From the NCBI RefSeq assembly GCF_003426775.1, contig NZ_QJUG01000004.1, positions 1-64,000 of the forward strand: a stretch of 64,000 nt of DNA. Reading direction: 5' to 3'. How positions within the stretch are numbered: position 1 is the first letter of the stretch; the number at the start of each line of letters is the position of its first letter. Position numbers and translations under genes: made by a program. Source of the stretch: Allorhizocola rhizosphaerae. GTDB taxonomy: Bacteria > Actinomycetota > Actinomycetes > Mycobacteriales > Micromonosporaceae. This document shows, one piece after another, positions 6,063-64,000 of the stretch. Under the pieces are notes generated by a model that was not told where the DNA came from, did no database searches, and was given only the letters and a program-made list of their open reading frames with translations.

Positions 6063-6141
6063 GGTAACCGGAGAACCGGGTTGATCGCCAACCCGTGTTT
6101 ATCCGCATGCCGTTCCTGATCTCACCGGATGGTGCAGAGGA

Positions 6142-6516: not shown

Positions 6517-6606
6517 GACGCCTCCGAGAATCGACAATTGAAACGTTGCAATTTTCGATCAATCACATATAGCGCAACCTCCCATAGCGGTACTGCCTCA
6601 CGAACG

Positions 6607-7023
6607 TTATTCGGCCGGGCGCAGTGTCGCCATGGCCCGCTCGGTCTCCCAGAACGCGCGCATGGATTGGATCAGCCCGTCGTCGCCCACCCGGTACACG
6701 AAAACGCCCTCGGTGTCGACGCGCATGCCGCCGGGCAGGTATGCGGTGATGGTGCCGACGTTGGCGACCTCCGATCCGGCCGCGAACGAGTCGCGGATGT
6801 CGAACTCGAAACGTTGCGCTTGCGCGATCGCCTTGTCCCAGAAGGCGGAGATGCCCTCGTGCCCGTGATGCCCCTTGCCCTCACTGTCGAAAAAGGACGG
6901 ACCGACCGGGTCCTCCAGGACCGCGTCGGGCGCGAAGAGTGCCAGCCAGCCGTCCTTGTCGCCGCGGATGACCGCGTCCATCGAGCGCCGCGCGGCGGCC
7001 CTTGCCAGGTGTTCGTCAGTCAT
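6607..7023 (-). CDS. SnoaL/NTF2-like (ketosteroid-isomerase fold) protein
   Basis: A 138-residue SnoaL-like domain protein of the NTF2 superfamily, which includes ketosteroid isomerases, polyketide cyclases and epoxide hydrolases. It opens with a helix (RRSMDAVIRGDKDGWLALF) followed by APDAVLEDPVGPS, the usual entrance to the cone-shaped pocket, and ends with FVYRV...GLIQSMRAFWE. Its ATG lies three bases after the stop of the LLM oxidoreductase, so the two form one operon behind a KstR-type site. A role in isomerising or binding a steroid-like intermediate is an inference from that context; no catalytic residue assignment is attempted. Confidence 0.8.
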   Translation of the reverse strand: MTDEHLARAAARRSMDAVIRGDKDGWLALFAPDAVLEDPVGPSFFDSEGKGHHGHEGISAFWDKAIAQAQRFEFDIRDSFAAGSEVANVGTITAYLPGGMRVDTEGVFVYRVGDDGLIQSMRAFWETERAMATLRPAE

Positions 7024-7026
7024 CGC

Positions 7027-7899
7027 TCAAGCCTCCATGCGTGTTATCACGTCGTCGGCGAACCGCCGAATGCCGTCCACTTTGGACTCCAGATCGCTGT
7101 CGAAGCCCGCGCCGTAGAAGAACCACGGCACGACGATCGCGTCGGTCACGCCGACGCCGGCCAGCTCGCGATAGCCGTCGAGGCCGAACCGGTCGATGCA
7201 CACCGCCTGGATTTCGAACGGCCCGGTGCGCCCGTATTCCGCGCGCAGCGCGGAAAGCCGGTCAATGGTGGCGCGCAGCCGCTCGAACTTCATCATGGCC
7301 GACGTCCAGCCGTCGCCGACGCGGGCGGCCCGCCGCAGCGCCGCCTCCGTGTGCCCGCCGACGTAGATGGGCACCGGTTCGGTTGGGGCCGGGCTCATCT
7401 GGAGTTTGCCGAAGCTGAAGTGCGCACCCTCGTAGGAGACCATGCCACCGCCCAGAATCAGGCGCAGGATCTCGATGGCCTCGTCCGCCCGCGCGCCCTT
7501 GTCCTTGAACGGCGCGCCGCACCATTCGAACTCCTCGGGCGTCCAGCCGAGCCCGACCCCGAGCCCGAACCGGTTGCCCGTCAGGTTGGCCACCGAGCCG
7601 ACCTGGCGCGCGAGCAGCACGGGATTGCGCGGCCCGAGCTTGAGCACCTGCGTGTAAAACCGGATGCGCGTGGTGGCCGCACCCATGGCGGCCGCCGCGA
7701 TGAGCGGATCGGCCCATGGGGTGCTCGCGTCCCAAAACCTACTGCCGTCTTTCGTGTACGGGTAGTCGGCTTGCACCTGTTCGGAATAGAAAATGGAATC
7801 GGGCAGCGCGATGGAGGCGAACCCGCAGTCCTCGGCGGCGCGGGCAAGCGGGATCCATTGGTCCACCGGGTTCAACGCGATGCCGAGCGTGAACTTCAT
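7027..7899 (-). CDS. LLM-class F420-dependent oxidoreductase
   Basis: A 290-residue luciferase-like (beta/alpha)8 flavin-dependent oxidoreductase; actinobacterial members of this type usually use coenzyme F420. Family features include MKFTLGIALN, SIALPDSIF, the stretch around LARQVGSVANLTGNRFGLGVGLGW (about 112-135) and VPIYVGGHTEAALRRAARVGDGW, all typical of F420-dependent LLM proteins. The start is the ATG at 7899; a KstR-type operator begins 10 bases upstream, so the promoter must lie in the 20-base gap and the end of the DinB gene. It is co-transcribed with the SnoaL-like gene. The likely role is redox modification of a lipid or steroid intermediate. Confidence 0.88.
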   Translation of the reverse strand: MKFTLGIALNPVDQWIPLARAAEDCGFASIALPDSIFYSEQVQADYPYTKDGSRFWDASTPWADPLIAAAAMGAATTRIRFYTQVLKLGPRNPVLLARQVGSVANLTGNRFGLGVGLGWTPEEFEWCGAPFKDKGARADEAIEILRLILGGGMVSYEGAHFSFGKLQMSPAPTEPVPIYVGGHTEAALRRAARVGDGWTSAMMKFERLRATIDRLSALRAEYGRTGPFEIQAVCIDRFGLDGYRELAGVGVTDAIVVPWFFYGAGFDSDLESKVDGIRRFADDVITRMEA

Positions 7900-7908
7900 G
7901 GACCAAAC

Positions 7909-7922
7909 TGTAACGTGTTCTA
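7909..7922. promoter_or_regulatory. KstR-type operator upstream of LLM/SnoaL operon
   Basis: TGTAACGTGTTCTA fits TnnAACnnGTTnnA at all fixed positions; read on the minus strand it is TAGAACACGTTACA. It sits 10-23 bases before the LLM oxidoreductase ATG and overlaps the stop codon of the DinB gene (7920-7922). This second site of the same type, 7.4 kb from the first, argues that both operons belong to one regulon. Confidence 0.7.
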
Positions 7923-8453
7923 GTTTAGCTGAGAAGTCACATCGTGCAGATGATGGATCGGATCGTGCACGAAATACCGCCCGATCGACTCCACGGTGAA
8001 CCGCGCCCCGTCGCTGCGGTTGCCCGTGCGCGCCCACTGATCGCCCTCGACCCGGGCGAACGCGGCCGCGACCGACTCCGCCGCGAGGCCCAGCTCGACG
8101 ATGACCTTCGCCGGGTCCTGCTCGCCGTAGCGCTCCTGCACCGCGGTCGCGTCCTGGTCCCAGTTGGGGAAGTGGGGATCGTCCTGGCTGAGCATGAGCC
8201 CGAGGCGATACTCATAGATGCGGAACACGTCTCGCACGTGGCACGCATATTCCAGCGGCGACCAGACGTCCGGGCGCCTGCGCACATGAAGCTCGCCGCC
8301 CGCGCGGAACACGTCCTGCCAGGCCTCCGCGTTCTCGCGAATCACGGTCGGGATGTCGGACCTGCCGATGCCACTGGCGTTGAAGCCGCACTCCGGGCAC
8401 GGCCGCTGCAGGACCCACGTCCAGTCCTTGGTGTCCGGAACAATCTCTGCCAT
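7920..8453 (-). CDS. DinB-fold metal-dependent protein
   Basis: A 177-residue four-helix DinB superfamily protein. The N-terminus carries the RPCPECGFN signature common in actinobacterial DinB proteins. Probable metal ligands are the His in LEYACHVRDVF (about 72) and the His cluster in DPIHHLHDV near the C-terminus. Some members act as mycothiol-dependent transferases or isomerases; here no substrate can be assigned. It precedes the LLM gene by 20 bases in the same direction, but the KstR-type site between them suggests the LLM operon has its own promoter. The ATG at 8453 gives the expected family N-terminus. Confidence 0.82.
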   Translation of the reverse strand: MAEIVPDTKDWTWVLQRPCPECGFNASGIGRSDIPTVIRENAEAWQDVFRAGGELHVRRRPDVWSPLEYACHVRDVFRIYEYRLGLMLSQDDPHFPNWDQDATAVQERYGEQDPAKVIVELGLAAESVAAAFARVEGDQWARTGNRSDGARFTVESIGRYFVHDPIHHLHDVTSQLN

Positions 8454-8463
8454 GCGGTTGAGG

Positions 8464-8796
8464 CTAGCTGTTGAACGCGATCGTCAGCTCTGCCACCTGG
8501 CCATCTCTCCATGTGACCTGCATCGTGCCCGAGCCGCCCGCGTCCCAGTCGAACCTCGCCAGCGCCGTCTCCGCGGCGACCTCCTCGATCGACCAGATGG
8601 ACATGGTGTCGCTGGGCGGCTGGCTCGCATAAGCCTTGGCGATGGCGTCGCGCCCCTTGAACGGGCCGACCGGGACATCGTCGAAGCGCATGACCGCGTC
8701 GTCGGCGAACGTCGCCACGAAGTCGTCGAAATCGCCCGACCGGACCGAATCGTTGAACAGCCGCTCGTGCTCGCGTACCGCTTCCGTCAGATCCAT
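8464..8796 (-). CDS. SnoaL-like nuclear transport factor 2 family protein
   Basis: A 110-residue NTF2-like protein: helix MDLTEAVREHERLFNDSVRSGDFDDFVATFADDAVMRF, then VGPFKGRDAIAKAY, the standard SnoaL order. I chose the ATG at 8796 because upstream in-frame codons give no family similarity and would overlap the divergent acetyltransferase gene. It lies 10 bases before the DinB gene in the same direction and is probably co-transcribed with it. Function unknown; the fold is compatible with isomerase, dehydratase or ligand-binding roles. Confidence 0.75.
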   Translation of the reverse strand: MDLTEAVREHERLFNDSVRSGDFDDFVATFADDAVMRFDDVPVGPFKGRDAIAKAYASQPPSDTMSIWSIEEVAAETALARFDWDAGGSGTMQVTWRDGQVAELTIAFNS

Positions 8797-50733: not shown

Positions 50734-51228
50734 ATGAATGCGAGGCTGTCCATCGCTGCGGTAGCAGCGACCGCCCTGGTCAGCATCGGGTTCCTACTCA
50801 GCGGCGCGCACGCGGTCACGCCGTTCTCAGACGACTTCGAGGACGGCAACACCAGCGGATGGTCCCAGTCCGGTGGTCAGTGGTCCGTGGTCGCCGAGTC
50901 ATGGCTGACACCGACTGTCCGGCTGTTCGCCGGGAGCTCCGGTTGGATCAGCTACACGGTCGAGGCCCGCGTCAAGCCGACCGCCCTCACCGGCGTCGGC
51001 TCTTTCGCGGGCATCGCCGCACGTGCCGCTCTCGGCAGCAACAGCGCGATCGCCTCGGGCCGCAGGGGCGTCCTCACCGACCAGGCCACTGCCCAGTTCG
51101 ACGATGCGAAGGTCACGGACACGGCCGACCCCGGACCCACGACTCTGACAGCCCCGCCCGACACGGCGCCCGCGGGGCCAACCTCGACGGCCGGCTCGAC
51201 CCCGCACGGCGGTGCCGGCCGCGACTGA
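50734..51228 (+). CDS. Secreted binding-domain-only paralogue of the pectate lyases (internally deleted)
   Basis: A 164-residue secreted protein. Signal peptide to SGAHA, then PFSDDFEDGNTSGWSQSGGQWSV, which matches the N-terminal lectin-like domain of the following lyases (FSDNFDDGNANGWTRSGG). Compared with them, about 60 residues from the middle of that domain are missing (from ARAALGSNS directly to ASGRRGVLTDQATAQFDDAKVTD), and the PL1 domain is absent; a Pro/Thr tail ends the protein. GGAGG precedes the ATG. It may be a decaying duplicate, or a free carbohydrate-binding remnant. The frame is intact. Confidence 0.7.
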   Translation: MNARLSIAAVAATALVSIGFLLSGAHAVTPFSDDFEDGNTSGWSQSGGQWSVVAESWLTPTVRLFAGSSGWISYTVEARVKPTALTGVGSFAGIAARAALGSNSAIASGRRGVLTDQATAQFDDAKVTDTADPGPTTLTAPPDTAPAGPTSTAGSTPHGGAGRD

Positions 51229-51268
51229 CGTTCAGCAATCCCTTCCTACGTCCCAAGAGAAGGTACGC

Positions 51269-52819
51269 ATGAAACTCAAACTCACCCTAGCCACGGCGAC
51301 CTCGGCGGCGGTTGTCGCCGCGATGGTCGTTGTGATGAGCTCGGGCGCGAACGCGGCAACGCTGTTCTCGGACAACTTCGACGACGGGAATGCCAACGGC
51401 TGGACCAGGTCCGGCGGTTCGTGGTCGGTGATGTCCGGAGCCTACGCGCAGACCGGCACGAGCTCGGACGCCAAGGCCCAGGCGGGCTCCACGACCTGGA
51501 CCACGCAATCAGTGACGGCCCGGGTGCGGCCGACATCGTTCGGCACGAATTCCTCTCGTGCCGTGGGTGTCGTGGCGCGGGCGCAGAGCTCGTCGAACTA
51601 CTACTCGCTCGTGCTGACCCCGGGCGGCGCCCAGCTGCGCCGCGGCGCGACGGTGCTCGCGTCCGCATCGTTGGCCGTGTCGACGGGTACCTGGTACACG
51701 TTGACGCTCAATGCCGGCTCATCGACATTGACGGGCCTGGTCAACGGAGTGCAGGTGGTCAACGCGACCGACAGCAGCTACGCGTCGGGCAGGGTCGGGT
51801 TCGTCAGCACGTACGCCGCAGCGACGTTCGATGATCTGGTGGTCACCGACGCGCCCGGCACGACCCCGACCGGTTCGCCGTCGCCGTCCACGTCCAGCAG
51901 CCCACCGGCACCCGGCACGTGCAACACATCCGGCACGGCCGACGGCCACGCGACCGGCACGACCGGTGGCGCGGGCGGCCCGAAGGTCGAGGTCGACACG
52001 GCCGGCGAGCTGATCAGCGCGATCGGCCAGTCCGGCCCGCTGCAGATCTGCGTGCGCGGCATGATCACACTCCCGGCCGGGATGTATGACGTGACGTCGC
52101 ACAAGACGATCGTCGGCATCGGCGACAACTCCGGTATCACGGGCGGCGGGTTCAACATCGGCCTGCCGATCAGCGACGTGACCACGCCGCCGGCCAACGC
52201 GGTACACAACGTCATCATCCGCAACCTGATATTCCGCAACGCTTCCGACGACTCGATCAACGTGCAGATGTTCTCCCACCACATCTGGATCGACCACAAC
52301 GACCTTGCCTCGGGCTACGACGGCCTGATCGACATCAAGCGGGGATCGACCAACGTCACGGTCTCCTGGAACCACCTGCACAACCACACCAAGACGATGC
52401 TGCTTGGCCACGACGACAACAACGGTGCGCAGGACACCGGCCGGCTCAAGGTGACCTACCACCACAATTGGCACAACCGGACCCCGCAGCGCAACCCGCG
52501 GGTGCGCTACGGCGAACCCGTGCACATCTACAACAGTTACTTCGTCTACAACACCGACACCGGGCCCGCCTGCCAGGTTTACTCCGGCTGCGTGGTTGAG
52601 GGCAACTACTTCGAGGACGTCGAGGAGCCCGTGACCAACACCTACTCCGGACCGGCGGGGCGTTGCGTGGCACGCAACAACGTCTTCGTCGGCGAGTCCG
52701 GCACGCCGGAGTGCTCCGGCACGGTGCAGGAGCCCTCGACGTACTACTCGTACAGATTGGACGATCCCAACCAGGTGAAGGCGATCGTCATGGCCGGAGC
52801 AGGGGTGGGCAGGATATGA
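51269..52819 (+). CDS. Secreted two-domain PL1 pectate lyase, paralogue 2
   Basis: A 516-residue secreted lyase. Signal peptide MKLKLTLATATSAAVVAAMV... ending SGANA; lectin-like sandwich domain (about 31-195: LFSDNFDDGNANGWTRSGG to ATFDDLVVTD); Pro/Ser linker (about 196-222); PL1 domain (about 223-516) with HHIWIDHNDLASGYDG, VTVSWNHLHNHTKTMLLGHDD and PQRNPRVRYG (catalytic Arg). AGAAGG is six bases before the ATG. The stop overlaps the next start (ATGA). The C-terminus AGAGVGRI recurs in the paralogues. Confidence 0.92.
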   Translation: MKLKLTLATATSAAVVAAMVVVMSSGANAATLFSDNFDDGNANGWTRSGGSWSVMSGAYAQTGTSSDAKAQAGSTTWTTQSVTARVRPTSFGTNSSRAVGVVARAQSSSNYYSLVLTPGGAQLRRGATVLASASLAVSTGTWYTLTLNAGSSTLTGLVNGVQVVNATDSSYASGRVGFVSTYAAATFDDLVVTDAPGTTPTGSPSPSTSSSPPAPGTCNTSGTADGHATGTTGGAGGPKVEVDTAGELISAIGQSGPLQICVRGMITLPAGMYDVTSHKTIVGIGDNSGITGGGFNIGLPISDVTTPPANAVHNVIIRNLIFRNASDDSINVQMFSHHIWIDHNDLASGYDGLIDIKRGSTNVTVSWNHLHNHTKTMLLGHDDNNGAQDTGRLKVTYHHNWHNRTPQRNPRVRYGEPVHIYNSYFVYNTDTGPACQVYSGCVVEGNYFEDVEEPVTNTYSGPAGRCVARNNVFVGESGTPECSGTVQEPSTYYSYRLDDPNQVKAIVMAGAGVGRI

Positions 52820-54414
52820 GAGCCAAAGTCATCGTCGCCGTCACCACGGCCGTCGTCACCGCGACGGCCCTGTGGATGGGCACGGCCAACGCGGCAACGC
52901 TGTTCAGCGACGACTTCAACGACGGCAACGCCGACGGCTGGACCAGGTCCGGCGGCACGTGGGTCGTTTCGTCGGGTGCCTACACGCAGACCGGCACGGG
53001 TTCGGACGCCAAGGCCCAGGCGGGCTCCACGTCATGGACCGCGCAATCGGTCACGGCCCGGGTGCGGCCCACCGCGTGGGGCTCCAACTCCAACCGCGCG
53101 GTCGGCGTCGCGGCGCGAGCCACGGGCCTGTCCACCTTCTACTCGCTCGTGCTCACCCAGAGCGCGGTGCAGATCCGGCGGGGGACAACGGTTTTGACCT
53201 CGGCGTCGTTCTCCGTGTCGACCGGCACGTGGTACACCTTGAAACTCAACGCGAGCGGCCAAGGGCTGACCGGTTTCGTGAACGGCGGCCAGGTGCTGTC
53301 CACTGTGGACGGCGCGCTGGCGTCCGGCCGGGCCGGGTTCGTGGCCGGCTACGCGGCGGCCCAGTTCGACGACATCCTGGTGACGGATGAGGCCGGGCCC
53401 AGCCCGTCGCCCAGCGCGTCCTCGCCGAACCCGTCGCCGTCGGTGTCCCCGTCCGGCTCACCGTCGCCTACCCCGTCGGTGTCCATCCCGCCGATGCCCA
53501 ATGTGGCCGACGGCTACGCCGGCGTCAACGCGTGGGGCCAGAACGGGACATCGGGCGGCGCCGGAGGGTCCACTGTGGACGTCAACAGCGCGTCGGCGTT
53601 CCTGTCGGCGATCGCCAACCCCAACCCGCTCGTCATCCGGGTCAACGGGATGATCTCGCTGCCCGGACCCATGCACGACGTGACGTCGCACAAGACCATC
53701 ATCGGGGTCGGGGCCAACTCCGGTCTCACGGGTGGCGGGCTCAACATCGGCCTGCCGCTGAGCGACAGCATCACCTCGCCGCCGGCCAACGCGGTGCGCA
53801 ACGTCATCGTCCGGAACCTGAATATCACCAACTGCCCGGACGACTGCATCAATGTGCAGATGTTCTCGCACCACATTTGGATCGATCACAACCAGCTGGG
53901 CAACCAGAACGACGGCGCGCTCGACGTCAAGCGCGGATCGAGCTATGTGACCATTTCGTGGAACCGGTTCGCCAACAGCGACAAGAACATGCTGCTGGGT
54001 CACGACGATTCCAACGACGCGCAGGACGTCGGCCGGCTGAAGGTCACCTATCACCACAACTTCCTCGACGGCTCCAATCAGCGCAACCCACGGGTGCGCT
54101 TCGGCGAGCCGGTGCACATCTACAACAACTACTACCTCCACATCACCGGCTATGGCGCGGCCTCGCAGATGAACGCCTGCCTCGTCGTGGAGAACAACTA
54201 CTTCGACGACGTGGAGAAGCCCACGCGCAACGATGTCGGCGGCACCGCCGGGCGGATCGAGGCGCGCGGAAACATCAATGTGAATACCGAGGATCCGATC
54301 GTCACCGCCGGCTCGTGCACCTCCCAGCCGAGGGACTACTACTCCTACACGCTGGACCCGGCCGCGAACATTCCGGCCCTCGTGAGCGCCGGGGCGGGGG
54401 TGGGCAAGATATGA
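52816..54414 (+). CDS. Secreted two-domain PL1 pectate lyase, paralogue 3
   Basis: A 532-residue secreted lyase of the same plan: signal peptide to GTANA, sandwich domain (LFSDDFNDGNADGWTRSGG to AQFDDILVTD), a longer Ser/Pro linker (about 200-240), and PL1 domain with HHIWIDHNQLGNQNDG, VTISWNRFANSDKNMLLGHDD and NQRNPRVRFG. It begins with an ATG overlapping the previous stop and ends with GAGVGKI. Closest in its catalytic region to paralogue 2 (VTSHKTIIGVGANSGLTGGGLNIGLP). Confidence 0.92.
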   Translation: MRAKVIVAVTTAVVTATALWMGTANAATLFSDDFNDGNADGWTRSGGTWVVSSGAYTQTGTGSDAKAQAGSTSWTAQSVTARVRPTAWGSNSNRAVGVAARATGLSTFYSLVLTQSAVQIRRGTTVLTSASFSVSTGTWYTLKLNASGQGLTGFVNGGQVLSTVDGALASGRAGFVAGYAAAQFDDILVTDEAGPSPSPSASSPNPSPSVSPSGSPSPTPSVSIPPMPNVADGYAGVNAWGQNGTSGGAGGSTVDVNSASAFLSAIANPNPLVIRVNGMISLPGPMHDVTSHKTIIGVGANSGLTGGGLNIGLPLSDSITSPPANAVRNVIVRNLNITNCPDDCINVQMFSHHIWIDHNQLGNQNDGALDVKRGSSYVTISWNRFANSDKNMLLGHDDSNDAQDVGRLKVTYHHNFLDGSNQRNPRVRFGEPVHIYNNYYLHITGYGAASQMNACLVVENNYFDDVEKPTRNDVGGTAGRIEARGNINVNTEDPIVTAGSCTSQPRDYYSYTLDPAANIPALVSAGAGVGKI

Positions 54415-55919
54415 ACCGAAAAGCCCTTATCGCTGCCGCGGCCGCCGTGGTCACCGCTGTCGGGTTATTTGTCGGTACCGCTAACGCCGCAACGCTGATC
54501 GAAGACAACTTCAACGACGGCAACGCGTCCGGATGGACCACGTCGGGCGGCTCGTGGTCGGTGGCGGCCGGGGCCTACGAGCAGACGGGCACCGGCTCGG
54601 ATGCCAAGGCCCTGGCCGGATCGACGTCGTGGACCAACTATTCGGTGCAGGCACGGGTGCGGCCCAACGCTTTCGGGTCCAACTCGGCGCGTGCGGTCGG
54701 GGTCTCGGCGCGGGCACAGAGCCTGTCGAACTTCTACTCGTTCGTGCTCACTCCATCGGGGGCACAACTGCGCCGGGGCACCACGGTGCTCGCATCGGCG
54801 TCGCTGAGCGTGTCGGCCGGCACGTGGTACACGTTGAGCCTCAACGTGTCCGGGCCCTCGCTCAGCGGGTCGGTCAACGGGACGCAGGTCGTGTCCACTT
54901 CGGACTCTACCTACGCCAACGGGCGCGCCGGGTTCCACTCCAGCTACGGCAGCGCGAGTTTCGACGATATCGTGGTGTTCACCGGCACGGCGCCCTCGCC
55001 AACGGCAACGTCGTCGCCGACACCGACCGGCTCACCGATCCCGGAGCCGCCGGCCGGACAGCCGGACGGGTTCGCGATCGGCACCACGGGCGGCGCCGGC
55101 GGGCCGACCGTCACCGTCACGAACGCCGCGCAGCTGGCCGACTACGCGGGGCGCGCCGGGCCGTACAACATCATGGTTTCAGGCACCATCTCCACGTCCG
55201 ACATGATTACCGTGGTGGCCAACAAGAGCATCATCGGTGTCGGGTCGACCGCGCACATCACCGGCGGCGGGCTGCAGATGGGTTCGACCACGCGGCCGGG
55301 CCACAACGTGATCATCCGGAACATCAAGTTCAGCAACGCGTCGGACGACTCGATCAGCGTGACCAACGGCGCGCGCGGGGTGTGGATCGACCACAACGAG
55401 TTCCTGCCTGGATCGGACGGGTCGCTGGACATCAAGCGCCAATCGACCAACGTCACCGTCTCATGGAACGTCTTCCACGGCACCGACAAGTCGATGCTGC
55501 TCGGGCACTCCGACACGGCCACGGTCGACGTCGGGTACCTGAAGGTGACCTACCACCACAACTACTTCAACGGCTCCAACCAGCGGCACCCGCGGGCACG
55601 CTTCGGCGACCCCGTGCACGTGTACAACAACTACTACCGCAACATCGGCCTGTACGGCATCGCGTCCACACAGAACGCGGGCGTGCTCGTGGAGGGCAAC
55701 TACTTCGAGAACGCGCAGACGCAATCGTGCTGGTCGGCCACGCCGTATGGCGACTCCGACATCCCGGGGCGGCTGGTGCAGCGCAACAACATTTTCGTCA
55801 ATTCCGGCCCGTGTGAGGTCAACGGCAGCGTGGCACCCATACCGTACGGCTACACGCTCACCCCGACCTCGTCCGTGCCGTCCGTCGTGACCTCGGGAGC
55901 GGGAGTGGGGAAGATATGA
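54411..55919 (+). CDS. Secreted two-domain PL1 pectate lyase, paralogue 4
   Basis: A 502-residue secreted lyase: signal peptide to GTANA, sandwich domain (LIEDNFNDGNASGWTTSGG to SFDDIVVFTG), short linker, and PL1 domain with GVWIDHNEFLPGSDG, VTVSWNVFHGTDKSMLLGHSD and NQRHPRARFG. The PL1 part groups with paralogue 5 (PPAGQPDGFA.GTTGGAGGPTV). Leu19 in the signal peptide is a TTA codon (54465-54467), a possible bldA-type control point. ATGA overlaps on both sides. Confidence 0.92.
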   Translation: MNRKALIAAAAAVVTAVGLFVGTANAATLIEDNFNDGNASGWTTSGGSWSVAAGAYEQTGTGSDAKALAGSTSWTNYSVQARVRPNAFGSNSARAVGVSARAQSLSNFYSFVLTPSGAQLRRGTTVLASASLSVSAGTWYTLSLNVSGPSLSGSVNGTQVVSTSDSTYANGRAGFHSSYGSASFDDIVVFTGTAPSPTATSSPTPTGSPIPEPPAGQPDGFAIGTTGGAGGPTVTVTNAAQLADYAGRAGPYNIMVSGTISTSDMITVVANKSIIGVGSTAHITGGGLQMGSTTRPGHNVIIRNIKFSNASDDSISVTNGARGVWIDHNEFLPGSDGSLDIKRQSTNVTVSWNVFHGTDKSMLLGHSDTATVDVGYLKVTYHHNYFNGSNQRHPRARFGDPVHVYNNYYRNIGLYGIASTQNAGVLVEGNYFENAQTQSCWSATPYGDSDIPGRLVQRNNIFVNSGPCEVNGSVAPIPYGYTLTPTSSVPSVVTSGAGVGKI

Positions 55920-57517
55920 GCGAGGGCTTGCCCCGAGTGAATCGGCAGGCGCGCACCGCGCAGCGCAGCGCAGGGATGCCATTGAGGGTCCTTGCCGCCA
56001 TCGCATCGGCGGCGGCGGTGCTGGTGGTGGCCACACTTGCGAGTGTGGCCACCGCGGCCCCGCTTTTCGCCGACAACTTCGACGACGGCAATGCCAACGG
56101 CTGGACGACGTCGGGTGGGTCGTGGTCGGTGTCGTCCGGCGCCTATCAACAGACCGGGACGAGCTCGGATGCGCGGGCTCGGGCCGGGTCGGCCTCGTGG
56201 GCGAACTACACGGTTTCGGTGCGGGTGCGGGCCAACGCGTTCAACGGGTCGAACCGGTTTGTCGCGGTGCTCGCGCGGGCGCAGTCCAACACGAGTTACT
56301 ACTACGTGGCGTTGCGCAGCAACAACACGGTCGAGTTGAAGAAGCTCGTGAACGGGTCGGCCACGACGCTCGTGGCGACGTCGGTCAATGTGTCGATCGG
56401 CACGTGGTACACGTTGACGCTACGTGTTGACGGGTCAACATTGACAAGTCAGGTCAACGGTGGGTCGACATTGACCGCCTCGGACAGTCAATACGCGAGC
56501 GGGCAGATCGGTGTGGCCACGTTCAACGCGAGCGCCACGTTCGACGACGTCAACGTGGAGTCGGGCACGACCCCGCCCTCGCCGTCGGCCTCGCCCTCCG
56601 CTTCGCCCACGTCGTCGCCCAGCCCGTCGCCCTCGGTGTCGCCCACCGGGTCGCCGCAGCCGCCCGCCGGACAGCCCGACGGGTTCGCGGCCGGCACCAC
56701 CGGTGGCGCGGGCGGCCCGACGGTCGTGGTGCGCACGACCAACGAACTGCTCACGGCGATCGACACGATCGGCCCGCTGAACATTCACGTGCAGGGGACC
56801 ATCAACATCACGAGCAAGCAGGGCGTCCGTCCAAACAAGACGATCCTCGGGCTCGGATCCACCGCCACGATCAACGGCGGCGGGTTCGACTTCTATCGTT
56901 CGTACAACGTCATCATCCGCAACCTCACCTTCACGAACGCGGAAGACGACGCGGTCAACGTCGGCCAGAACTCGCACCACATCTGGATCGACCACAACCG
57001 TTTCGTGTCACCGGTCGACGGCGCCATCGACATCGTGCGCGGGTCCGAGTACGTGACCGTGTCGTGGAACCACTTCGACCACACCGACAAGTCGATGCTC
57101 ATCGGCCACTCCGACAGCAACTCGGGTGAGGACACCGGCCACCTGAAGGTGAGCATCCACCACAACTGGTTCGACAACAGCCGGCAACGGCACCCGCGGG
57201 TGCGCTTCGGCGAGCCCGTGCACGTGTACAACAACTACTTCCTGAACAACGAGCTCTACGCGGTCGCGTCGACGATGAACGGTGGCGTGCTCGTGGAGGG
57301 CAACTACTTCCAGAACGTGCCCTTCCCGTGCTACTCGGCCAGCGGCTACGCCGAGAGCGGGCCGGGCCGGCTGGTGCAGCGCAACAACATCTTCACAGGG
57401 TCCGGCGCGTGCGAGGTGAACGGCTCGGTGGCCGCACCACCGTACTCGTACACGCTGACACCGACCGCGAACGTGCCTTCCGTTGTCATGGCGGGGGTTG
57501 GGGTCGGTAAGCTGTGA
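55916..57517 (+). CDS. Secreted two-domain PL1 pectate lyase, paralogue 5
   Basis: A 533-residue secreted lyase. The N-terminus is longer (about 20 residues before the hydrophobic core LRVLAAIASAAAVLVVA), so an ATG at codon 21 (55976) is an alternative start, but the first ATG overlaps the previous stop like the others. Sandwich domain (LFADNFDDGNANGWTTSGG to ATFDDVNVESG) differs in its middle (YYYVALRSNNTVELKKL). PL1 domain: HHIWIDHNRFVSPVDG, VTVSWNHFDHTDKSMLIGHSD, RQRHPRVRFG. Ends GVGVGKL. A hairpin terminator follows. Confidence 0.92.
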   Translation: MSEGLPRVNRQARTAQRSAGMPLRVLAAIASAAAVLVVATLASVATAAPLFADNFDDGNANGWTTSGGSWSVSSGAYQQTGTSSDARARAGSASWANYTVSVRVRANAFNGSNRFVAVLARAQSNTSYYYVALRSNNTVELKKLVNGSATTLVATSVNVSIGTWYTLTLRVDGSTLTSQVNGGSTLTASDSQYASGQIGVATFNASATFDDVNVESGTTPPSPSASPSASPTSSPSPSPSVSPTGSPQPPAGQPDGFAAGTTGGAGGPTVVVRTTNELLTAIDTIGPLNIHVQGTINITSKQGVRPNKTILGLGSTATINGGGFDFYRSYNVIIRNLTFTNAEDDAVNVGQNSHHIWIDHNRFVSPVDGAIDIVRGSEYVTVSWNHFDHTDKSMLIGHSDSNSGEDTGHLKVSIHHNWFDNSRQRHPRVRFGEPVHVYNNYFLNNELYAVASTMNGGVLVEGNYFQNVPFPCYSASGYAESGPGRLVQRNNIFTGSGACEVNGSVAAPPYSYTLTPTANVPSVVMAGVGVGKL

Positions 57518-57579: not shown

Positions 57580-58320
57580 GTGGAGCTTGAGGTCAACGGG
57601 CGGTCCGTCGCGACGTATGTGGTGGAGGAGCCGCGGCCCTACCTGCATCCGATGAGGACACTGGGTGGGGTGGTGGTGACCGACGTCGAGCCCGAGGACC
57701 ACAAGTGGCACATGGGGCTGTCGCTCGCCGTGCAGGACGTCAACGGCACCAATCTGTGGGGCGGGCGGACCTATGTGCGCGGGCAGGGATACACGTGGCT
57801 CGACGACCACGGCACCATGACGCATGAAGGGTTCGATCACGCCGACGCGGGCCGGATCGTGCAGCGGCTGACGTGGCGCGACAAGGACGGCAAACCTTTG
57901 CTGCACGAACTGCGCACCATCACGGCGTCCGCCGTCGACTCGGCCAGCTGGGCGCTGGAGCTGAAATGGGCGCTGACCGCCCCCGAGCGGGTCGTGTTCG
58001 GCAGCCCGACCACCAACGGGCGGGAGTGGGGCGCGGGCTACGGCGGGTGCTTCTTGCGTATAGCGCCAGGCCCTTCGCCCGTCGTGACCGCGGGCTCGTT
58101 GACCGGCGAGGACGAAGTCAACGGCAGCGACGACCCGTCACTGGAGTGGCGCTCGCCCGAATTCCGGCTGCACATGACGTCCGGCCCGCGCTGGTTCGTG
58201 CGCACGAGCATGTATCCGGGAGTCTGCGCGGCCTGGGCGTTCGACCAGGTGATGGTCATCGAGGCGGGCGACACCTGGGAGGGCGCGTTCCGCCTGGTGG
58301 TCTCGGACGTAAGTTCATGA
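57580..58320 (+). CDS. DUF6807 (PmoA-like) family protein
   Basis: A 246-residue cytoplasmic protein of the DUF6807 family, often found beside Gfo/Idh/MocA dehydrogenases and polysaccharide degradation genes; the reaction is unknown. Features are PRPYLHPMRTLGGVVVTDVEPEDHKWHMGLSLAVQ (here: PYLHPMRTL, EDHKWHMGLS), GGRTYVRGQGYTWLDDHG and NGREWGAGYGGCFLRI. I chose the GTG at 57580, giving MELEVNGRSV; a GTG at 57514 would overlap the last lyase and run through the terminator hairpin. The last five codons come from a sequence that matches one arm of the palindromic repeat at 25443. Confidence 0.78.
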   Translation: MELEVNGRSVATYVVEEPRPYLHPMRTLGGVVVTDVEPEDHKWHMGLSLAVQDVNGTNLWGGRTYVRGQGYTWLDDHGTMTHEGFDHADAGRIVQRLTWRDKDGKPLLHELRTITASAVDSASWALELKWALTAPERVVFGSPTTNGREWGAGYGGCFLRIAPGPSPVVTAGSLTGEDEVNGSDDPSLEWRSPEFRLHMTSGPRWFVRTSMYPGVCAAWAFDQVMVIEAGDTWEGAFRLVVSDVSS

Positions 58321-58326
58321 TCGACG
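58305..58326. repeat. Single-arm copy of the 25443 palindromic repeat
   Basis: GGACGTAAGTTCATGATCG (58305-58323) and the three bases ACG after it match the arm of the 25443-25525 element at 20 of 22 positions. It spans the last codons and stop of the DUF6807 gene. The second arm is missing, so this looks like a degenerated or half copy. Confidence 0.5.
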
Positions 58327-58357
58327 CGCGGGGGGCGGCGGCTGGGGTGGGTGAGGG

Positions 58358-59308
58358 CTAGGTGGGAAGGGTTTTTCGCCAGACGTCAATGGTGAGAACT
58401 TCTCGCATGCCTGCGCGCTGGTAGAGGCCGAGTGCTGGGCGTTGCGGGTTGGTGTCCACGTGCAGGACCGTCCCCACGCGCCCGTCGGCGGCGTCGGCCG
58501 CGAAGGCGTACCGCAGCAAAAATCCGGCAAGGCCGCGGCGCCGGAAGCCGGGAAGGGTGCTCAGCGACAGGACATAGCCGCAGTTGAGATCCGGCACGAA
58601 GTTGTTGGTGCGGATCAGCGCCGCCGCCGCCACGCCGTCGACATAGGCCACGTGGACCATGCGCCAGTCGTGCGAGCTGTTGGCCTCCCGTTCGGCCACC
58701 CAATCCTCGAACGTGCGCTCCACCGCGCCGAAATGGTCGGCGAATGCCGTCTGCCGCACCGTGAACGCGTCTCGCCGGATGTCCGCCGAATCCGCGGCGT
58801 CGCGCAGCTCGACCCCGTCGGGCAGCGGCGGGTAGGGCACGGGCCGGTCGTGGTCGATGCGCATGCGCAGGAACGTGGTCGCCACGGACAGCCCGTCGCG
58901 CTCGGCGAGACCGCGCACGAGCTCGTCCTTCGGGGACAGGCCAACGTCGATGGTGACCCGCGGATGGCCCAGCTCGCGGGCGATCTCCTTGGCCCGCAGC
59001 ACCGCCTGCTCCCACAGAAACGGCGCGATCCGATCATGCCCGGGCACCACGTAAACCGCCACGTCCACGTTGTCGCTTTGGCCCTTGCGGCACACCCAGC
59101 CATAACCGACCGGCTCTCCCGCCTCGGTGCGCACGAGCCACCCATCGGTCTCCGCGCTCCACGCCGGCTCGTTCAGCTCGTCGATCACGTCGTCGAGCGT
59201 GGCGTTGGCATCCCCGACCAGCGGCACGTTGTGCGCGGTCTCGATGGCCAGGATGTCCCGCGCGTCGCCGAGGCCGGGCCGGCGGACCAGGTAACCGTCA
59301 AGTTGCAT
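58358..59308 (-). CDS. Two-domain GNAT acetyltransferase
   Basis: A 316-residue protein with two GNAT folds, as in mycothiol synthase-like proteins. The N-terminal half (VRRPGLGDARDILAIE...AVYVVPGHDRIAPFLWEQAV) lacks a clean acetyl-CoA loop. The C-terminal half has YVLSLSTLPGFRRRGLAGFLLRYAF with the RRGLAG pyrophosphate loop and HVDTNPQRPALGLYQRAGM, so this half is probably the active one. Start ATG at 59308. No acceptor can be assigned. Divergent from the YqeY-like gene (64 bases). Confidence 0.85.
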   Translation of the reverse strand: MQLDGYLVRRPGLGDARDILAIETAHNVPLVGDANATLDDVIDELNEPAWSAETDGWLVRTEAGEPVGYGWVCRKGQSDNVDVAVYVVPGHDRIAPFLWEQAVLRAKEIARELGHPRVTIDVGLSPKDELVRGLAERDGLSVATTFLRMRIDHDRPVPYPPLPDGVELRDAADSADIRRDAFTVRQTAFADHFGAVERTFEDWVAEREANSSHDWRMVHVAYVDGVAAAALIRTNNFVPDLNCGYVLSLSTLPGFRRRGLAGFLLRYAFAADAADGRVGTVLHVDTNPQRPALGLYQRAGMREVLTIDVWRKTLPT

Positions 59309-59372
59309 CCCGACAGTCTGCGCGGCCCCATTGCCAAGCGCCACCGAATAATTCGCGGGTAGTATCGCGCGG

Positions 59373-59741
59373 GTGTCCACTGACCTTGCCCCACCGCTTC
59401 GGCAGCGCCTGCGTTCGGCGCTCACCGCCGCCATGAAGGCCCGCGACTCCGTGGCGGTGCCCGCGCTGCGCTCGGCCCTGGCCGCCATCGACAACGCGGA
59501 GGCCGTGGCGCACGATGCGGTCGAGGCCCGCAACCTCGCCATCGAGACGACGCCGGTCGGCGCGGGCACCACCGAGATGGCCCGCCGCGTGCTGACCGAG
59601 GCCGATGTCTTGGCGATCGTGCGGGCCGATGTGGCCGAGCGGGAGGCGGCGGCGCTCGGCTACGAGCGGGCCAACCAGCCTGAGCGCGCCCAACTGCTGC
59701 GCGCCCAGGCCGAGGTGTTGTCGGCGCATCTTCCCGCTTAG
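59373..59741 (+). CDS. GatB/YqeY-like protein
   Basis: A 122-residue protein of the YqeY type: LRQRLRSALTAAMKARDSVAVPALRSALAAIDNAEAV at the start and ADVAEREAAALGYERANQPERAQLLRAQAEVLSAHLP at the end, helical and related to the tail domain of GatB. It is shorter than usual YqeY (about 150). It starts at a GTG (59373) without a clear ribosome site. Proposed for the family: tRNA-linked role; not established. Immediately followed by the sigma/propeller scar on the other strand. Confidence 0.8.
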   Translation: MSTDLAPPLRQRLRSALTAAMKARDSVAVPALRSALAAIDNAEAVAHDAVEARNLAIETTPVGAGTTEMARRVLTEADVLAIVRADVAEREAAALGYERANQPERAQLLRAQAEVLSAHLPA

Positions 59742-59751
59742 GCGGCCCCTG

Positions 59752-60370
59752 TCACTCACACGACCAGACGGTCGACACGAAGCGGTCCGGATATGACGTC
59801 GTGCCGATGACCGTCCTGCCGTCCTCACTCACCCAATCGACATAGGTGGGGAAGTCGGGATCGGCTCCCTGCGGGACCGGGACTCGCAGGGCGCGGTCGA
59901 GTTCCGGAGACACGATCGTCGTGCCGAAGGTGATCCAGCCCGAGGCCGTCATGCGCATGTGCTTGGCCTCGACCGAGCGCAGCGTGGTGATCTTGCCGGT
60001 GTCCAGGTCCCAGCGTGCCGGGATCTGGGTCGGGTCACTGTCGGTCGGGGGCTCAAGGAACGCGAACCCGACCGCATGCCCGCCGTGGACGGCGGCCGCG
60101 TGTGCTGCGGCCAAGCCGGCCGTTACTTCGAGGGCCCGGCCGGTACCGTCAGGAGCCCAGACATAGGGCTGACCTTCGTTGGGGTGCCTGTCTCGCGGGC
60201 GACCGGACTTCGGGTCGACGCCCGGAAACACGATAAAGCGCGGTGATCGTGCTCTGCACGATGTCCTCGGCCTGATGCACGTTGCCGCACAACAGATACG
60301 CCGCCCGGTTGAGTACCGCAAGCCGCGCCTTCACATAATCCACGTAGGCCTGTTCGGCGTCGGCGCGCAC
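59752..60370 (-). pseudogene. Deletion scar joining a SigE-family sigma start to a propeller-protein end
   Basis: From a GTG at 60370 the first 45 or so codons encode RADAEQAYVDYVKARLAVLNRAAYLLCG and QAEDIVQSTITALYR, the N-terminal region 2 of a SigE-family ECF sigma factor. At about 60230 the homology stops and a different frame carries on for about 160 residues (FPGVDPKSGRPRDRHPNEGQPYVWAPDG to TTSYPDRFVSTVWSCE), like the end of a propeller-type protein often encoded just after such sigma genes. A deletion that removed the rest of the sigma gene and the start of the neighbour explains it. Sigma region 4 is missing, so it should be non-functional. Confidence 0.7.
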
Positions 60371-60456
60371 GAATCACATCCCTTCCACACACGTTGCACT
60401 GCCATCTGAACGTGCCCGGCAGGGCCGGAGGACGCAGTCAGGACATCTGCCGAATG

Positions 60457-60615
60457 TCAGGCTGTGAGGCGCCACCGGCGGCCAATCACCGACACGGCCA
60501 AGCCCAGCAGCACGAGCAGTACGCCGCCCGCGGTCATCATGATCGCCGCGAGCGACTTGACCTCGACCGGCACCGTGCGAGCCCTGCGCGTTGGACGAGA
60601 CAAAAACTTGAACAC
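60457..60615 (-). CDS. Possible small single-pass membrane protein
   Basis: A 52-residue frame starting at a GTG (60615): basic stretch LSRPTRRARTV, then a hydrophobic helix (LAAIMMTAGGVLLVLLGLAVSVIG) and a basic end RRWRLTA. The topology (one helix, positive ends) is plausible for a real membrane peptide. There is no clear ribosome site. It lies in the 413-base gap 60371-60783, divergent from the condensation-domain operon. The rest of the gap shows nothing I can support. Confidence 0.35.
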   Translation of the reverse strand: MFKFLSRPTRRARTVPVEVKSLAAIMMTAGGVLLVLLGLAVSVIGRRWRLTA

Positions 60616-60783
60616 TTTACTGAGGACCCGATGACGCGAGATCGGCTGAATGGCTCGTTTTGTGGTCGCTGTAGCGGCCGCTTGCCATGCGTATCGACGT
60701 CGTGAAATTCTTGCTCGTCTGAAATCGTGTTCACATCGCCGTGACGGCCTGGACCCTCCAACAACGAAAGGTGGGGAGTCGAT

Positions 60784-62145
60784 GTGACGATGGTCGCGGC
60801 ATTTCGCGGCGAGCGGGCCACGATCGCCCCGCTCACCTGGGGGCAGCAGGGCATCTGGAAGCTCGTCTCCGCGATGGCGCCCAACGACGCGTTCCTCAAC
60901 CTTTGCCGGATTGTGCCCGTGCCGCAACGGGCGGCGGGCTCGGTCGAGTCGGTCGCGGCCGCGTTCGGTGAGCTGATCTCCCGGCATGAGGCGCTGCGCA
61001 CCCGGGTCCAAGACGTCGATGGCGAGCCGTGCCAGGTGGTGGCCGACGCGGGGGAGTGCCCGCTGGAGCTGATCGAGTCCACCGCCGAGGAGGCCGAGGC
61101 CGACGCGGAGCGGGCAATGGAGCGGCTGCGCCGCCTGCCCTTCGACTACGTCGCTGAGCTGCCGATCCGCGTGGCGCTGGTGGTCGCGGACGCCCGGGTC
61201 CGGTTCGCGGTGCTCGTGCTCAGCCATGTGGCTGTGGACTGGTACGCCTACACCCGCCTCGAACGCGACCTGCGCGTCCTGCTCCTGCGCGGCGCGATCA
61301 CGACGCCCGCCGGCAGGCAGCCGGCCGATCTCGCGCGCGAGGAGCAGGGCGACGCCGGACGGGAGCGGACGGCCCGCGCGCACGACCATTGGAGCGTCCA
61401 ATACGGACGGTTCCCGGCTCAGGTCCTCACCGAGATCGCGCCGCCCGCGGCGCCGCGTTACCAGTGGGCCGAGCTGACCTCCCGCGCGCTGGACCTGGCG
61501 TGCCGGGCGGTGGCCGCCCAGCACGCGGTCAGCACGTCCACGGTCCTGCTCGCCGCGACCGGGGTCCTGCTCGGCGCGCACACCGGCCACGACGTGTGCG
61601 GCATGCTGACCATCGTCAACAACCGCTTCCGGGAGGGCCTCGACGAGGTGATGGCCCCGACCAACCAGCTCGGCGTGGTCACGCTCGACCTGCGCGGCGC
61701 CACGACGTTTGGCGGGCTGGTCTCGGCCGTGTGGCCCGAGGTACTCCAGAGCATGCGCAACGCCTACTACGACCAGCACACGCTCGACCGGTTCCTGGCC
61801 GAAGGGGGTCACGTGCACGGTGAAAAGATCGAGCCGTTCTGTTGCTTCAATGACATGCACACCGCGGGCAACAGCGGTCAGGGTGAAGCCGTGACCGAGG
61901 AGCAGCTGCGCGAGGCGCTCAAGGCCACCGAGCTCACGTTCACCGAAAAGCTCAACGAGTTCAACTGGCACTTCATGCTCGCGGTCAACGACGCGCCCGG
62001 CGCGCTCAACCTGACGCTGACCACCGACTCGGCCCGCATGCCGCTGGACCGGCAGCGCCAGTTTCTTTATGGCATAGAAAATTTGGTGGTACGGGCCGCG
62101 ACCGGCGAGGTGCGGCTGGACGAGTTGGCGGGGCGGGTGTCATGA
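60784..62145 (+). CDS. Free-standing NRPS condensation-domain protein, atypical active site
   Basis: A 453-residue protein that is a single condensation-type domain, with no adenylation or carrier domain. N-lobe: APLTWGQQGIWKLVSAM and SRHEALRTR. The HHxxxDG motif appears as SHVAVDW (147-153), where the first His is Ser and the Gly is Trp, while the second His (148) and Asp (152) remain. C-lobe: STSTVLLAATGVLLGAHTGHDVCGMLTIVNNR and NQLGVVTLDLRG. The start is a GTG with GGGGAG five bases upstream; an ATG two codons later is possible. The stop overlaps the next gene. It may act as an acyl/peptidyl transferase or be a partner subunit. Confidence 0.85.
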   Translation: MTMVAAFRGERATIAPLTWGQQGIWKLVSAMAPNDAFLNLCRIVPVPQRAAGSVESVAAAFGELISRHEALRTRVQDVDGEPCQVVADAGECPLELIESTAEEAEADAERAMERLRRLPFDYVAELPIRVALVVADARVRFAVLVLSHVAVDWYAYTRLERDLRVLLLRGAITTPAGRQPADLAREEQGDAGRERTARAHDHWSVQYGRFPAQVLTEIAPPAAPRYQWAELTSRALDLACRAVAAQHAVSTSTVLLAATGVLLGAHTGHDVCGMLTIVNNRFREGLDEVMAPTNQLGVVTLDLRGATTFGGLVSAVWPEVLQSMRNAYYDQHTLDRFLAEGGHVHGEKIEPFCCFNDMHTAGNSGQGEAVTEEQLREALKATELTFTEKLNEFNWHFMLAVNDAPGALNLTLTTDSARMPLDRQRQFLYGIENLVVRAATGEVRLDELAGRVS

Positions 62146-63512
62146 CGGCCGAGCTCATCGATTCCGGGCAGGCGCCGATCCCGCGCCGCCCGGCCGGGAT
62201 CTCGGCGGTGCCGCTTTCGGCCTTCCAGCAACGCATTCATCACCTGTGCACGGCCTACGAGGGCACGTCGTCGCCGTGCGTCTTCCTCAACAAGCGATTG
62301 CACGGTCCACTCGCGACAGACGCGATGGTCCGTGCCATCGGCATGGTGGTCGACCGGCACGAGAGCCTGCGCGCCGTCATCGGTGACACGGAATCCGGGC
62401 CGTGCCAGACGTTTCTGCCGCCGGGCATGCATGAAGTCGAGCACATCGATCTGAGCGACCTGCCGCCCGACGAACGCGAGCAACGGCTGCGCGACCTGTT
62501 GGGCGCGCGCACCAAGACGCTGTTCGACCTGCGCGGCGGGACCGACCCACTCATCCGGTCGGCGCTGATCCGGCTCAGCGAAACCGAACACGTGCTGTCC
62601 ATCGTGATGCATCACATCATCGCCGACGGCGCGTCGTCGGGCATCCTCGCGAGCGACCTCGCCGCGTGCTACCGGGCCGCCGTGCAGGGTGGCAGCCCCG
62701 AACTTCCCGAATTATCCATCGGGTACGGCGATTTCGCGCACTGGCAGCGCGACGGCCTGGCGGAGCGGGTGGCCAGCGGGCTGGCCTTCTGGCGCGAACG
62801 GCTCGCCGGGGTGACGCCGCTGCAGCTGCCCACCGACTTCGAACGCCCCGCGCAGAAGGCGACGCGGGCCGCCATTGTCGGGCACGCCATCGGGGCCGAT
62901 GTCGTCGCGGAGGTCGAGCGGCTGGCCCGGACATCGCGCTGCAGCACGTTCATGGTGCTGCTGGCGGGGTACCAGACAATGCTTGAAAAGCACAGCGGGA
63001 TAGCCGATATCTGCGTGGGCACCCAGGTCGCGGCGCGCACCCGCGTCGAGCTCGAACCGGTGATCGGGCTGTTCGGCAACACCCTGCCCATGCGCTGCGA
63101 CCTGAGCGGCGATCCCACCTTCGCCGAACTGCTCAAGCGCGTGCGCAGCATGGTTTTGAGCGCGCTCACCCGGCAGGAGGTGCCGTTCGGCAGCGTGGTG
63201 TCGCATTTGGACCTGCCGCACGATCCAAGTAGGACACAGGTGTTCCAGACCATCATGGCGCTGCACACCGAGACGGGCACGGACGGCATGGACCTGCTGG
63301 GCGTGAAGACCGAGCCCGCGCCGGCCGGGATGCCGCAGATCCTGCACGACATCGTGCTGGACATGTGGTTGCGCCCCAAGGGCTTGGACACCGCCTGGCG
63401 CTATGACACCGCACTGTTCCGCGAGGAAACCGTTGCGGCATGGGCGTCGTCCTATGAGCGCATCCTCCGCGCGGCCGTCGCCGACCCGCAAGCCCGCCTG
63501 TCCGCGCTCTAA
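62142..63512 (+). CDS. Free-standing NRPS condensation-domain protein
   Basis: A 456-residue single condensation domain. N-lobe: AVPLSAFQQRIHHLC and DRHESLRAVIG. The active site MHHIIADG (156-163) is intact. C-lobe: DFAHWQRDGLA, TFMVLLAGYQTMLEKHSG, GTQVAARTRVELEPVIGLFGNTLPMRCDL and the latch-like QEVPFGSVVSHLDLPHDPSRTQVFQTI, as in amide-forming domains. It overlaps the preceding gene by four bases, so both are co-translated and may form a heterodimer. No carrier or adenylation gene is in the window. A TTA codon (62712-62714, Leu191) is present. The product is unknown. Confidence 0.9.
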   Translation: MTAELIDSGQAPIPRRPAGISAVPLSAFQQRIHHLCTAYEGTSSPCVFLNKRLHGPLATDAMVRAIGMVVDRHESLRAVIGDTESGPCQTFLPPGMHEVEHIDLSDLPPDEREQRLRDLLGARTKTLFDLRGGTDPLIRSALIRLSETEHVLSIVMHHIIADGASSGILASDLAACYRAAVQGGSPELPELSIGYGDFAHWQRDGLAERVASGLAFWRERLAGVTPLQLPTDFERPAQKATRAAIVGHAIGADVVAEVERLARTSRCSTFMVLLAGYQTMLEKHSGIADICVGTQVAARTRVELEPVIGLFGNTLPMRCDLSGDPTFAELLKRVRSMVLSALTRQEVPFGSVVSHLDLPHDPSRTQVFQTIMALHTETGTDGMDLLGVKTEPAPAGMPQILHDIVLDMWLRPKGLDTAWRYDTALFREETVAAWASSYERILRAAVADPQARLSAL

Positions 63513-63539
63513 CCGAACCCGCGCACGCCTTCGCCGGCA

Positions 63540-64000
63540 TCATGGCTGGGCGCGCCAGGCCATGAGCGCCGAAAGTGCGAAGCCGAACGCGTTGGCAACA
63601 CCGTGGGTCGCCGCCATCCACTCGATCGACAGGTGCGGCACCCCGAACGCCTCACCCACGGCCCAGCTCAGCGCGAGCGCCATGGTGACGACGAGCGTCA
63701 CCGCGGCCAACCGAATCGCGCGTGTCCAAAGTAGCCAGCCGACGATCCACAGGCCTGCCGAAAGTACGACCGCGCCGATCAGCTCCACCCGGTTGTCCAC
63801 GAAGTATCCAATCAGGACGATGCCGGTGCCGATCGGCACGGTCAGCGCGCCGATATCGGCCAGCGCGCCACCGCGCTCGGCGGCGCACACCAGCCCCGCG
63901 ATCAGCGCGGCCGCGAAGCCGGCGAAGTGGAAGTGCGCCACCGTCAAGGACAGGATTTCAAGTTCAAAACCCATCATCCTGTATCCGGCCCGCTCCGCGA
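63540..64000 (-). CDS. YndJ-like integral membrane protein, 5' end beyond window
   Basis: At least 153 codons of a polytopic membrane protein. Typical YndJ-family parts are LTVAHFHFAGFAAALIAG near the visible start and MAATHGVANAFGFALSALMAW at the end, with five predicted helices. ATG codons exist at 63977 and 63974, but the frame stays open to the window edge (codons for AERAGYR before them) and the family is longer, so the true start is probably to the right of 64000. Function unknown; some relatives are called transporters. Confidence 0.7.
   Translation of the reverse strand, partial: AERAGYRMMGFELEILSLTVAHFHFAGFAAALIAGLVCAAERGGALADIGALTVPIGTGIVLIGYFVDNRVELIGAVVLSAGLWIVGWLLWTRAIRLAAVTLVVTMALALSWAVGEAFGVPHLSIEWMAATHGVANAFGFALSALMAWRAQP

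Follow-up and report, generated by a model that had tools for sequence, protein, structure and literature searches.

The adjacent genes C1 and C2, which encode two free-standing condensation (C) proteins, are probably the last two genes of a five-gene NRPS operon whose first three genes (about 4.7 kb) have been lost, with the remaining pair most likely active and acting in trans. The operon is intact in G009, which is the nearest relative by C1 and belongs to the same family and a different genus from the window genome (G000), and a box that precedes the first gene of that operon directly precedes C1 in the window. The evidence on the pair favours a stranded version of known machinery over a new kind of enzyme.

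The C1-C2 pair and its surroundings

The window, which is the 64,000-base stretch of DNA that was analysed, comprises bases 1-64000 of the 79,274-base contig C334 in a genome of 8.8 Mb (493 contigs, 96.7% complete). Its features are listed in Table 1 together with the operon genes of the relative.

Table 1. Positions of features in the window and of the operon genes in the G009 stretch.
Feature	Position	Strand	Description
6.0-kb segment, left part	59298..64000	.	Whole segment is contig 59298-65301; replaces 0.32 kb of the otherwise collinear Rhizocola hellebori locus; contains the pair
Gene remnants left of box	59752..60373	-	5' piece of a sigma-factor-like ORF, joined in a different frame to the 3' end of a larger protein; may be a deletion scar
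43-bp box, putative promoter/operator	60675..60717	+	90.7% identical to the box 5' of the G009 AMP-ligase gene
Presumed deletion junction region	60718..60783	+	In G009, AMP ligase, C-A-PCP and carrier (about 4.7 kb) sit between box and C1; missing in the window
C1	60784..62145	+	GTG start; 453 aa; free-standing condensation protein; SHVAVDW; catalytic-type His and Asp present
C2	62142..63512	+	ATG start; 456 aa; free-standing condensation protein; HHIIADG; ATGA-coupled to C1
G009 AMP ligase	4044-5561		
G009 C-A-PCP	5558-8473		
G009 carrier	from 8470		
G009 C1	8727-10148		66% identical to window C1
G009 C2	from 10145		71% identical to window C2; same ATGA overlap with C1 as in the window

Both proteins exceeded the curated cut-off of 30.6 bits for the Pfam Condensation profile (PF00668), with C1 matching at 94.3 bits (E 8.9e-27, profile positions 3-377 of 456) and C2 at 267.2 bits (E 3.1e-79, profile positions 5-442), and this profile was the sole Pfam match of each. 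AlphaFold2 models with a full C-domain fold were obtained for C1 (pLDDT 94.4, 64 sequences) and for C2 (pLDDT 90.1, 21 sequences). Together with the coding-type G+C content of their codon positions, the Pfam matches and folds indicate that C1 and C2 are not chance open reading frames. Both models have a two-lobed, CAT-like fold: that of C1 aligned with AmbB-TC over 366 residues at 2.9 A (VIA-align Z 34.4), and a Foldseek search with the C2 model returned the teicoplanin X-domain as the top match (E 1.5e-42, TM 0.86), followed by the C domains of TycC and Txo2. SgcC5 and TlmII are free-standing C proteins that belong to complete clusters. Their structures (PDB 4znm and 4hvm, respectively) share the fold of C1 and C2, at 16-29% identity in structure alignments. 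The second histidine and the aspartate of the HHxxxDG motif are present in both window proteins (H148 and D152 in C1), and the full canonical motif is found in C2 and not in C1.

The first-pass annotation had described two whole, co-translated C domains that lack local carrier and adenylation genes, and the coordinates, Pfam matches, folds and searches of C334 all agree with that description. None of the 42 PP-binding matches and none of the 38 AMP-ligase-like matches in the whole genome lies on C334, and C1 and C2 alone account for the part of the genome's 32 PF00668 matches that falls on this contig. It had also been considered that ordinary NRPS genes might lie right of the window; probes with the AMP ligase, C-A-PCP and carrier found nothing convincing in the remaining 15.3 kb of the contig on that side, nor in 20.8 kb to the left of C1, and none of the three genes was found on the 79-kb contig. 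The C1-C2 pair is truly alone locally. To its right on C334 lie YndJ and a protein without a Pfam match, and further translations, judged by eye, include a GNAT-like ORF, three subtilisin-like peptidases, a sensor/regulator pair and other ordinary genes. The three subtilisin-like genes (C334 65730-70457, right of the window) are related and were probably duplicated locally, and local duplication probably also gave rise to a run of related secreted pectate-lyase-like genes at window positions 50734-57517.

An intact operon and a common box in the nearest relative

The operon of G009 has the order AMP ligase, C-A-PCP, small carrier, C1 and C2, where the genes of this and the other compared loci were called with a simple ORF picker that dropped some genes, and where the carrier was scanned against Pfam through its homologue from L042. 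Comparison of the DNA of the G009 stretch with the window aligned C1 (75.6%), C2 (75.4%) and one 43-base box, besides one 50-base match at E 0.001. The proposed co-translation is strengthened by this comparison, as the ATGA coupling is also kept in this second genus. G009 further supplies the arrangement that the first-pass annotation had suggested looking for, namely a genome in which the pair adjoins a carrier, since the pair lies 3' of the carrier within an NRPS operon. The description of the pair as an orphan tailoring system consequently suits the window, where the pair is alone, and does not suit the closest relative, where it forms the end of an NRPS operon. The window neighbours that were checked as possible members of the system match nothing in the G009 locus.

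The box matched between the two genomes over 43 bases (blastn E 2.8e-10) and is located 58 bases before the AMP-ligase start in G009 and 66 bases before C1 in the window. Its 33-bp core occurs once in G000, once in G009 and not at all in 10 other family genomes, and a reversed-pattern control gave no match in any of the 12. Apart from the window's own copies, no other copy was found among the compared loci within 13 mismatches of the 43 positions. It would be simplest to explain this by a loss of the three genes that once separated the promoter region from C1 (AMP ligase, C-A-PCP and carrier), which would have brought the old promoter region directly before C1.

Genomic company of C1-type genes

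The window C1 belongs to the C1-type family that is found in clusters of AMP ligase, C-A-PCP, carrier and C1 genes. A search with the single C1 protein found no relatives, whereas a search with an alignment did, and it returned named actinomycete loci from Streptosporangium, Planobispora, Acrocarpospora, Microbispora, Streptomyces, Kitasatospora and others. Within the fetched stretch, both an AMP ligase and a C-A-PCP accompany C1 in 59 of these 65 loci, a C-A-PCP only in four and neither in two, one of which is a 3.2-kb contig, which places a C-A-PCP beside C1 in 63 of the 65. In clusters of this kind from Streptosporangium, Planobispora, Streptomyces, Kitasatospora and Microbispora, the C1 homologues are 29-43% identical and have the same xHxxxDx motif; the window differs in being without the AMP ligase, C-A-PCP and carrier and in having C1 followed by a coupled C2. 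In the literature searched, no characterised product or description of the AMP ligase/C-A-PCP/carrier/C1 gene set was found by title or abstract. The pepstatin and rotihibin clusters were rejected as product matches, as the excerpts that describe them give no matching gene set.

Among 82 loci with a C1-type gene and an AMP ligase >300 bits, 33 have AMP ligase, C-A-PCP and C1 in this order on the same strand, and 49 have C1 on the opposite strand, which indicates that the front genes are the usual company of C1 and that the bare C1-C2 pair is the exception. These loci bear on the direction of the change, because the window could instead represent the older state, if a C1-C2 operon gained three genes by insertion on the way to G009. 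The comparison of the two genomes is compatible with such an insertion. The window gene forms a clade of three in the tree with two G009 genes, the copy from the operon and L040 (52%), of which L040 is an orphan; L041 in the next row is an orphan too, so that the tree by itself leaves the older state unsettled. Since a single relative has both the intact operon and the exact pair, the polarity of the deletion rests on parsimony over the more distant loci. At E<=1e-105, and among the best four or fewer candidates per genome, C1 was found in 3 of 354 family genomes, namely that of the window, G009 (two loci) and G041 (two loci), and no third genome with a close C1-C2 pair was found. G041 was recognised as Rhizocola hellebori by identical sequence, which makes the family Micromonosporaceae. 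The lack of a third such genome and the recurrence of the same-strand gene order argue against an insertion, which we consider quite unlikely.

A further set of 59 relative loci was picked mostly by C1 score among the best 11 or fewer candidates per genome, leaving out L011 (which is the window DNA), L013, L034, L054 and the empty L074. Scored by matches >100 bits in the fetched stretch, 23 of these loci have both the AMP ligase and the C-A-PCP, 6 the C-A-PCP only, 2 the AMP ligase only (among them L035, whose C-A-PCP runs into L034) and 28 neither, the last figure being an upper bound for orphans because several stretches stop at contig ends. The 28 loci lend some weight to the idea that the pair is a working stand-alone system without any NRPS, which might for example use CoA or ACP as acyl donor and a soluble amine or alcohol as acceptor, with C1-type genes repeatedly recruited as orphans. 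Orphan C1-type genes are also paired across two genera, with little common neighbourhood (L036/L044, 82%, dN/dS 0.19; L037/L043, 65%, dN/dS 0.34), which is a sign that orphans are kept, and the orphan label changes at least 10 times on the tree, with 7 changes forced by well-supported branches. Moreover, the window gene and L040, which make up two-thirds of their own clade, are orphans, as is L041, and the window pair is intact. Against a stand-alone system, the nearest orthologue is part of an NRPS operon that carries the same box, the named relatives are cluster-linked in all but six cases, and the orphan count is the upper bound given above. Taken together, we regard this explanation as unlikely and favour a pair left behind by the loss of the front genes of its operon.

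Motif conservation in the C1 family

The first-pass annotation had taken the pair for a possible heterodimer with one structural subunit, which would make C1 an inactive companion of C2. Its reading of the motifs stands in that C2 has an intact HHxxxDG and C1 retains a His and the Asp, with the correction that the retained His is the second one, which is usually taken as catalytic. To describe the family, matches >100 bits and 1,100 bases were kept, which gave 132 C1-type sequences that include two duplicates (L043/L098 and L060/L120, each pair being the same DNA) and three with an in-frame stop inside the matched range (L060, L105 and L120). The second His is present in 131 of the 132 and the Asp in every one. 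The first motif position is occupied by Cys in 67 sequences, Ser in 54, other residues in 10 and His in a single one, and the last position by Gly (78), Phe (29), Ala (14), Trp (6), Arg (3), Pro (1) or Met (1). Across 64 aligned C1-type sequences, 10 columns are invariant, and these include H148 and D152.

Comparable proteins have been described. A review states that catalysis was originally ascribed to the second His and emphasises that the exact function of this residue differs from case to case (PMC11546977). A preprint describes OaaC as an active stand-alone C domain with a (D/H)HxxxDS motif, in whose family the second His (>99%) and the Asp are strongly conserved and the position following the Asp varies (PMC13142362). 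As described there, OaaC and the fatty-acid-amide C domains resemble C1 in being free-standing with a conserved second His and Asp, and OaaC has a separate adenylating enzyme and carrier; it differs from the window pair in being described as a homodimer and in coming from gut bacteria (PMC13142362). Neither SHVAVDW nor HHIIADG conforms to the OaaC-type motif. Zmn19 of the zeamine cluster is also free-standing with a replaced first His (PHxxxDG), and it is proposed to form an amide with which chain growth stops, although this protein, unlike the window C1, sits inside its cluster and comes from Serratia (PMC3547906). Searches for SHxxxDG, CHxxxDG and SHxxxDW-type motifs returned nothing on the C1 family by title. 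Based on the family survey, the review and the OaaC precedent, the replaced first His and Gly of C1 are not evidence of a dead subunit. As judged from sequence, xHxxxDx is the norm in the C1 family and an SHxxxDW-type motif is no sign of a dead enzyme.

A structural C1 would find some support in the ATGA coupling, which occurs in two genera and suggests balanced production, and in the replacement of the first His and the Gly. The near-invariant second His and Asp of the C1 family speak against it, as do the activity of OaaC and the catalytic role assigned to Zmn19, two stand-alone C domains in which the first His has been exchanged. An obligate heterodimer is also at odds with the company of C1, as a C2-type gene (>300 bits) lies near C1 in just 8 of the 59 sampled loci, window included, and in those 8 same-strand adjacency was seen in the window and G009 alone. 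We therefore consider a heterodimer with an inactive C1 very unlikely. Two C1-type genes occur per locus in L051, L056, L057, L065, L086, L090, L091 and L092, some of them beside AMP ligase/NRPS clusters.

Local rearrangement and constraint

The sigma-factor-like piece among the remnants left of the box scored 17.2 bits against Sigma70_r2, which is below the cut-off of 24. Of eight homologous matches elsewhere in five genomes, seven lie in open frames of 439-569 aa, compared with 192 aa in the window. These remnants give a weak hint of local gene loss beside the box. The surrounding contig is otherwise collinear with R. hellebori, in that positions 57607-59297 and 65302-70444 match L042 8306-5696 and 5376-1674, respectively, and R. 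hellebori has an intact cluster, with C1 and with AMP ligase, C-A-PCP, carrier and C2, on the far side of a DUF6807 gene. Because the pair has other neighbours than in G009 and falls within a 6-kb indel when compared with R. hellebori, a transfer or rearrangement also took place.

Between the window and G009, dN/dS by the NG86 method is 0.38 for C1 and 0.34 for C2, compared with 0.19-0.34 for seven comparison pairs (five NRPS-linked and two orphan), which places C1 above all seven; these are rough values, with a large dS for the window pair (0.62 and 0.67) and a method that ignores G+C bias, and they also include the time before the presumed loss. Relative-rate counts for the window and G009 were 48 and 34 private changes in C1 (chi2 2.39, not significant) and 26 and 25 in C2 (chi2 0.02). 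No stop or frameshift was found in the 2.7 kb of C1-C2. Both enzymes look intact and constrained, with no clear decay, and the higher dN/dS and more numerous private changes of C1 would fit some mild relaxation of this gene.

These data also bear on the main alternative to action in trans, which is that the pair is a still-intact relict, left without a substrate once the carrier-loading genes had gone and now being lost. The absence of the dedicated AMP ligase, C-A-PCP and carrier, the gene remnants that adjoin the box and the private changes of C1 all point in this direction. In contrast, the uninterrupted reading frames, the presence of the motif residues, dN/dS values near those of the comparison pairs and the preservation of the box speak for function, and a recent loss would look alike. 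On balance, a non-functional relict seems unlikely to us, and we retain an active pair as the preferred reading.

Possible trans partners and reaction order

The end of C6 is the start of C265, with an exact overlap of 121 bp, which indicates that the two contigs form one full paralogous cluster; joined, they encode C1', AMP ligase, C-A-PCP, carrier, C2' and a glycosyltransferase. A second candidate locus, on C157 (L054 9851-15264), contains an AMP-ligase-PCP-C fusion followed by a C-A-PCP, and no free-standing C1- or C2-type gene was found in the 19.5 kb fetched from that contig. The AMP ligases of the strain match the operon orthologue at best at 58% (C6) and 53% (C157) and then at <=37% apart from short matches, which indicates that the orthologous AMP ligase is missing from the assembly. 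C157 is unlikely to be the split-off front half of the operon, as its AMP ligase, which is part of a PCP-C fusion, sits on a longer branch than any other of the 31 that were placed. Another tandem C1-type pair of the same genome is located on C190 (L012 8445-11100), and a PP-binding ORF follows it at a distance of about 1 kb (C190:37081-37281).

The C-domain fold and the His/Asp pair make it most likely that C1 and C2 have activity as acyl- or peptidyl-transferases. Synthesis by the intact operon would begin with the loading of an acid onto the small carrier by the AMP ligase, after which the C-A-PCP would add one amino acid. A second condensation and the release would follow, carried out by C2, with its canonical HHxxxDG, and C1, whose xHxxxDx motif is shared with stand-alone domains by which chains are released onto small amines. 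In the window strain, C6+C265 or C157 could supply loaded carriers, and the pair most likely acts in trans on the carriers of one of them. A precedent for such a satellite arrangement may be seen in the pyrrolamide genes pya22-24 of Streptomyces netropsis, which encode a PCP and two free-standing C proteins in a small satellite locus separate from the main NRPS cluster; this locus has kept its own PCP, unlike the window, and the paper leaves the roles of Pya22-24 unclear (PMC4047045).

Implications for the C1 family

A broader and more tentative proposal is that the C1-type class repeatedly breaks away from AMP ligase/C-A-PCP clusters in the Micromonosporaceae, with selection keeping its members as transferases that act in trans or need no carrier. 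The window pair would then be an early break-away with its old promoter region, possibly an obligate C1-C2 complex that serves C6+C265 or C157. What appeared to be a heterodimer without partners becomes a testable case of the break-up of an NRPS cluster, for which the intact operon, the common box and candidate trans partners can be named. The C1-type genes encode stand-alone C proteins that form a large family in actinomycetes, whose orphan members may be missed by cluster-mining, and the recurrent orphan state of these genes is the most interesting point.
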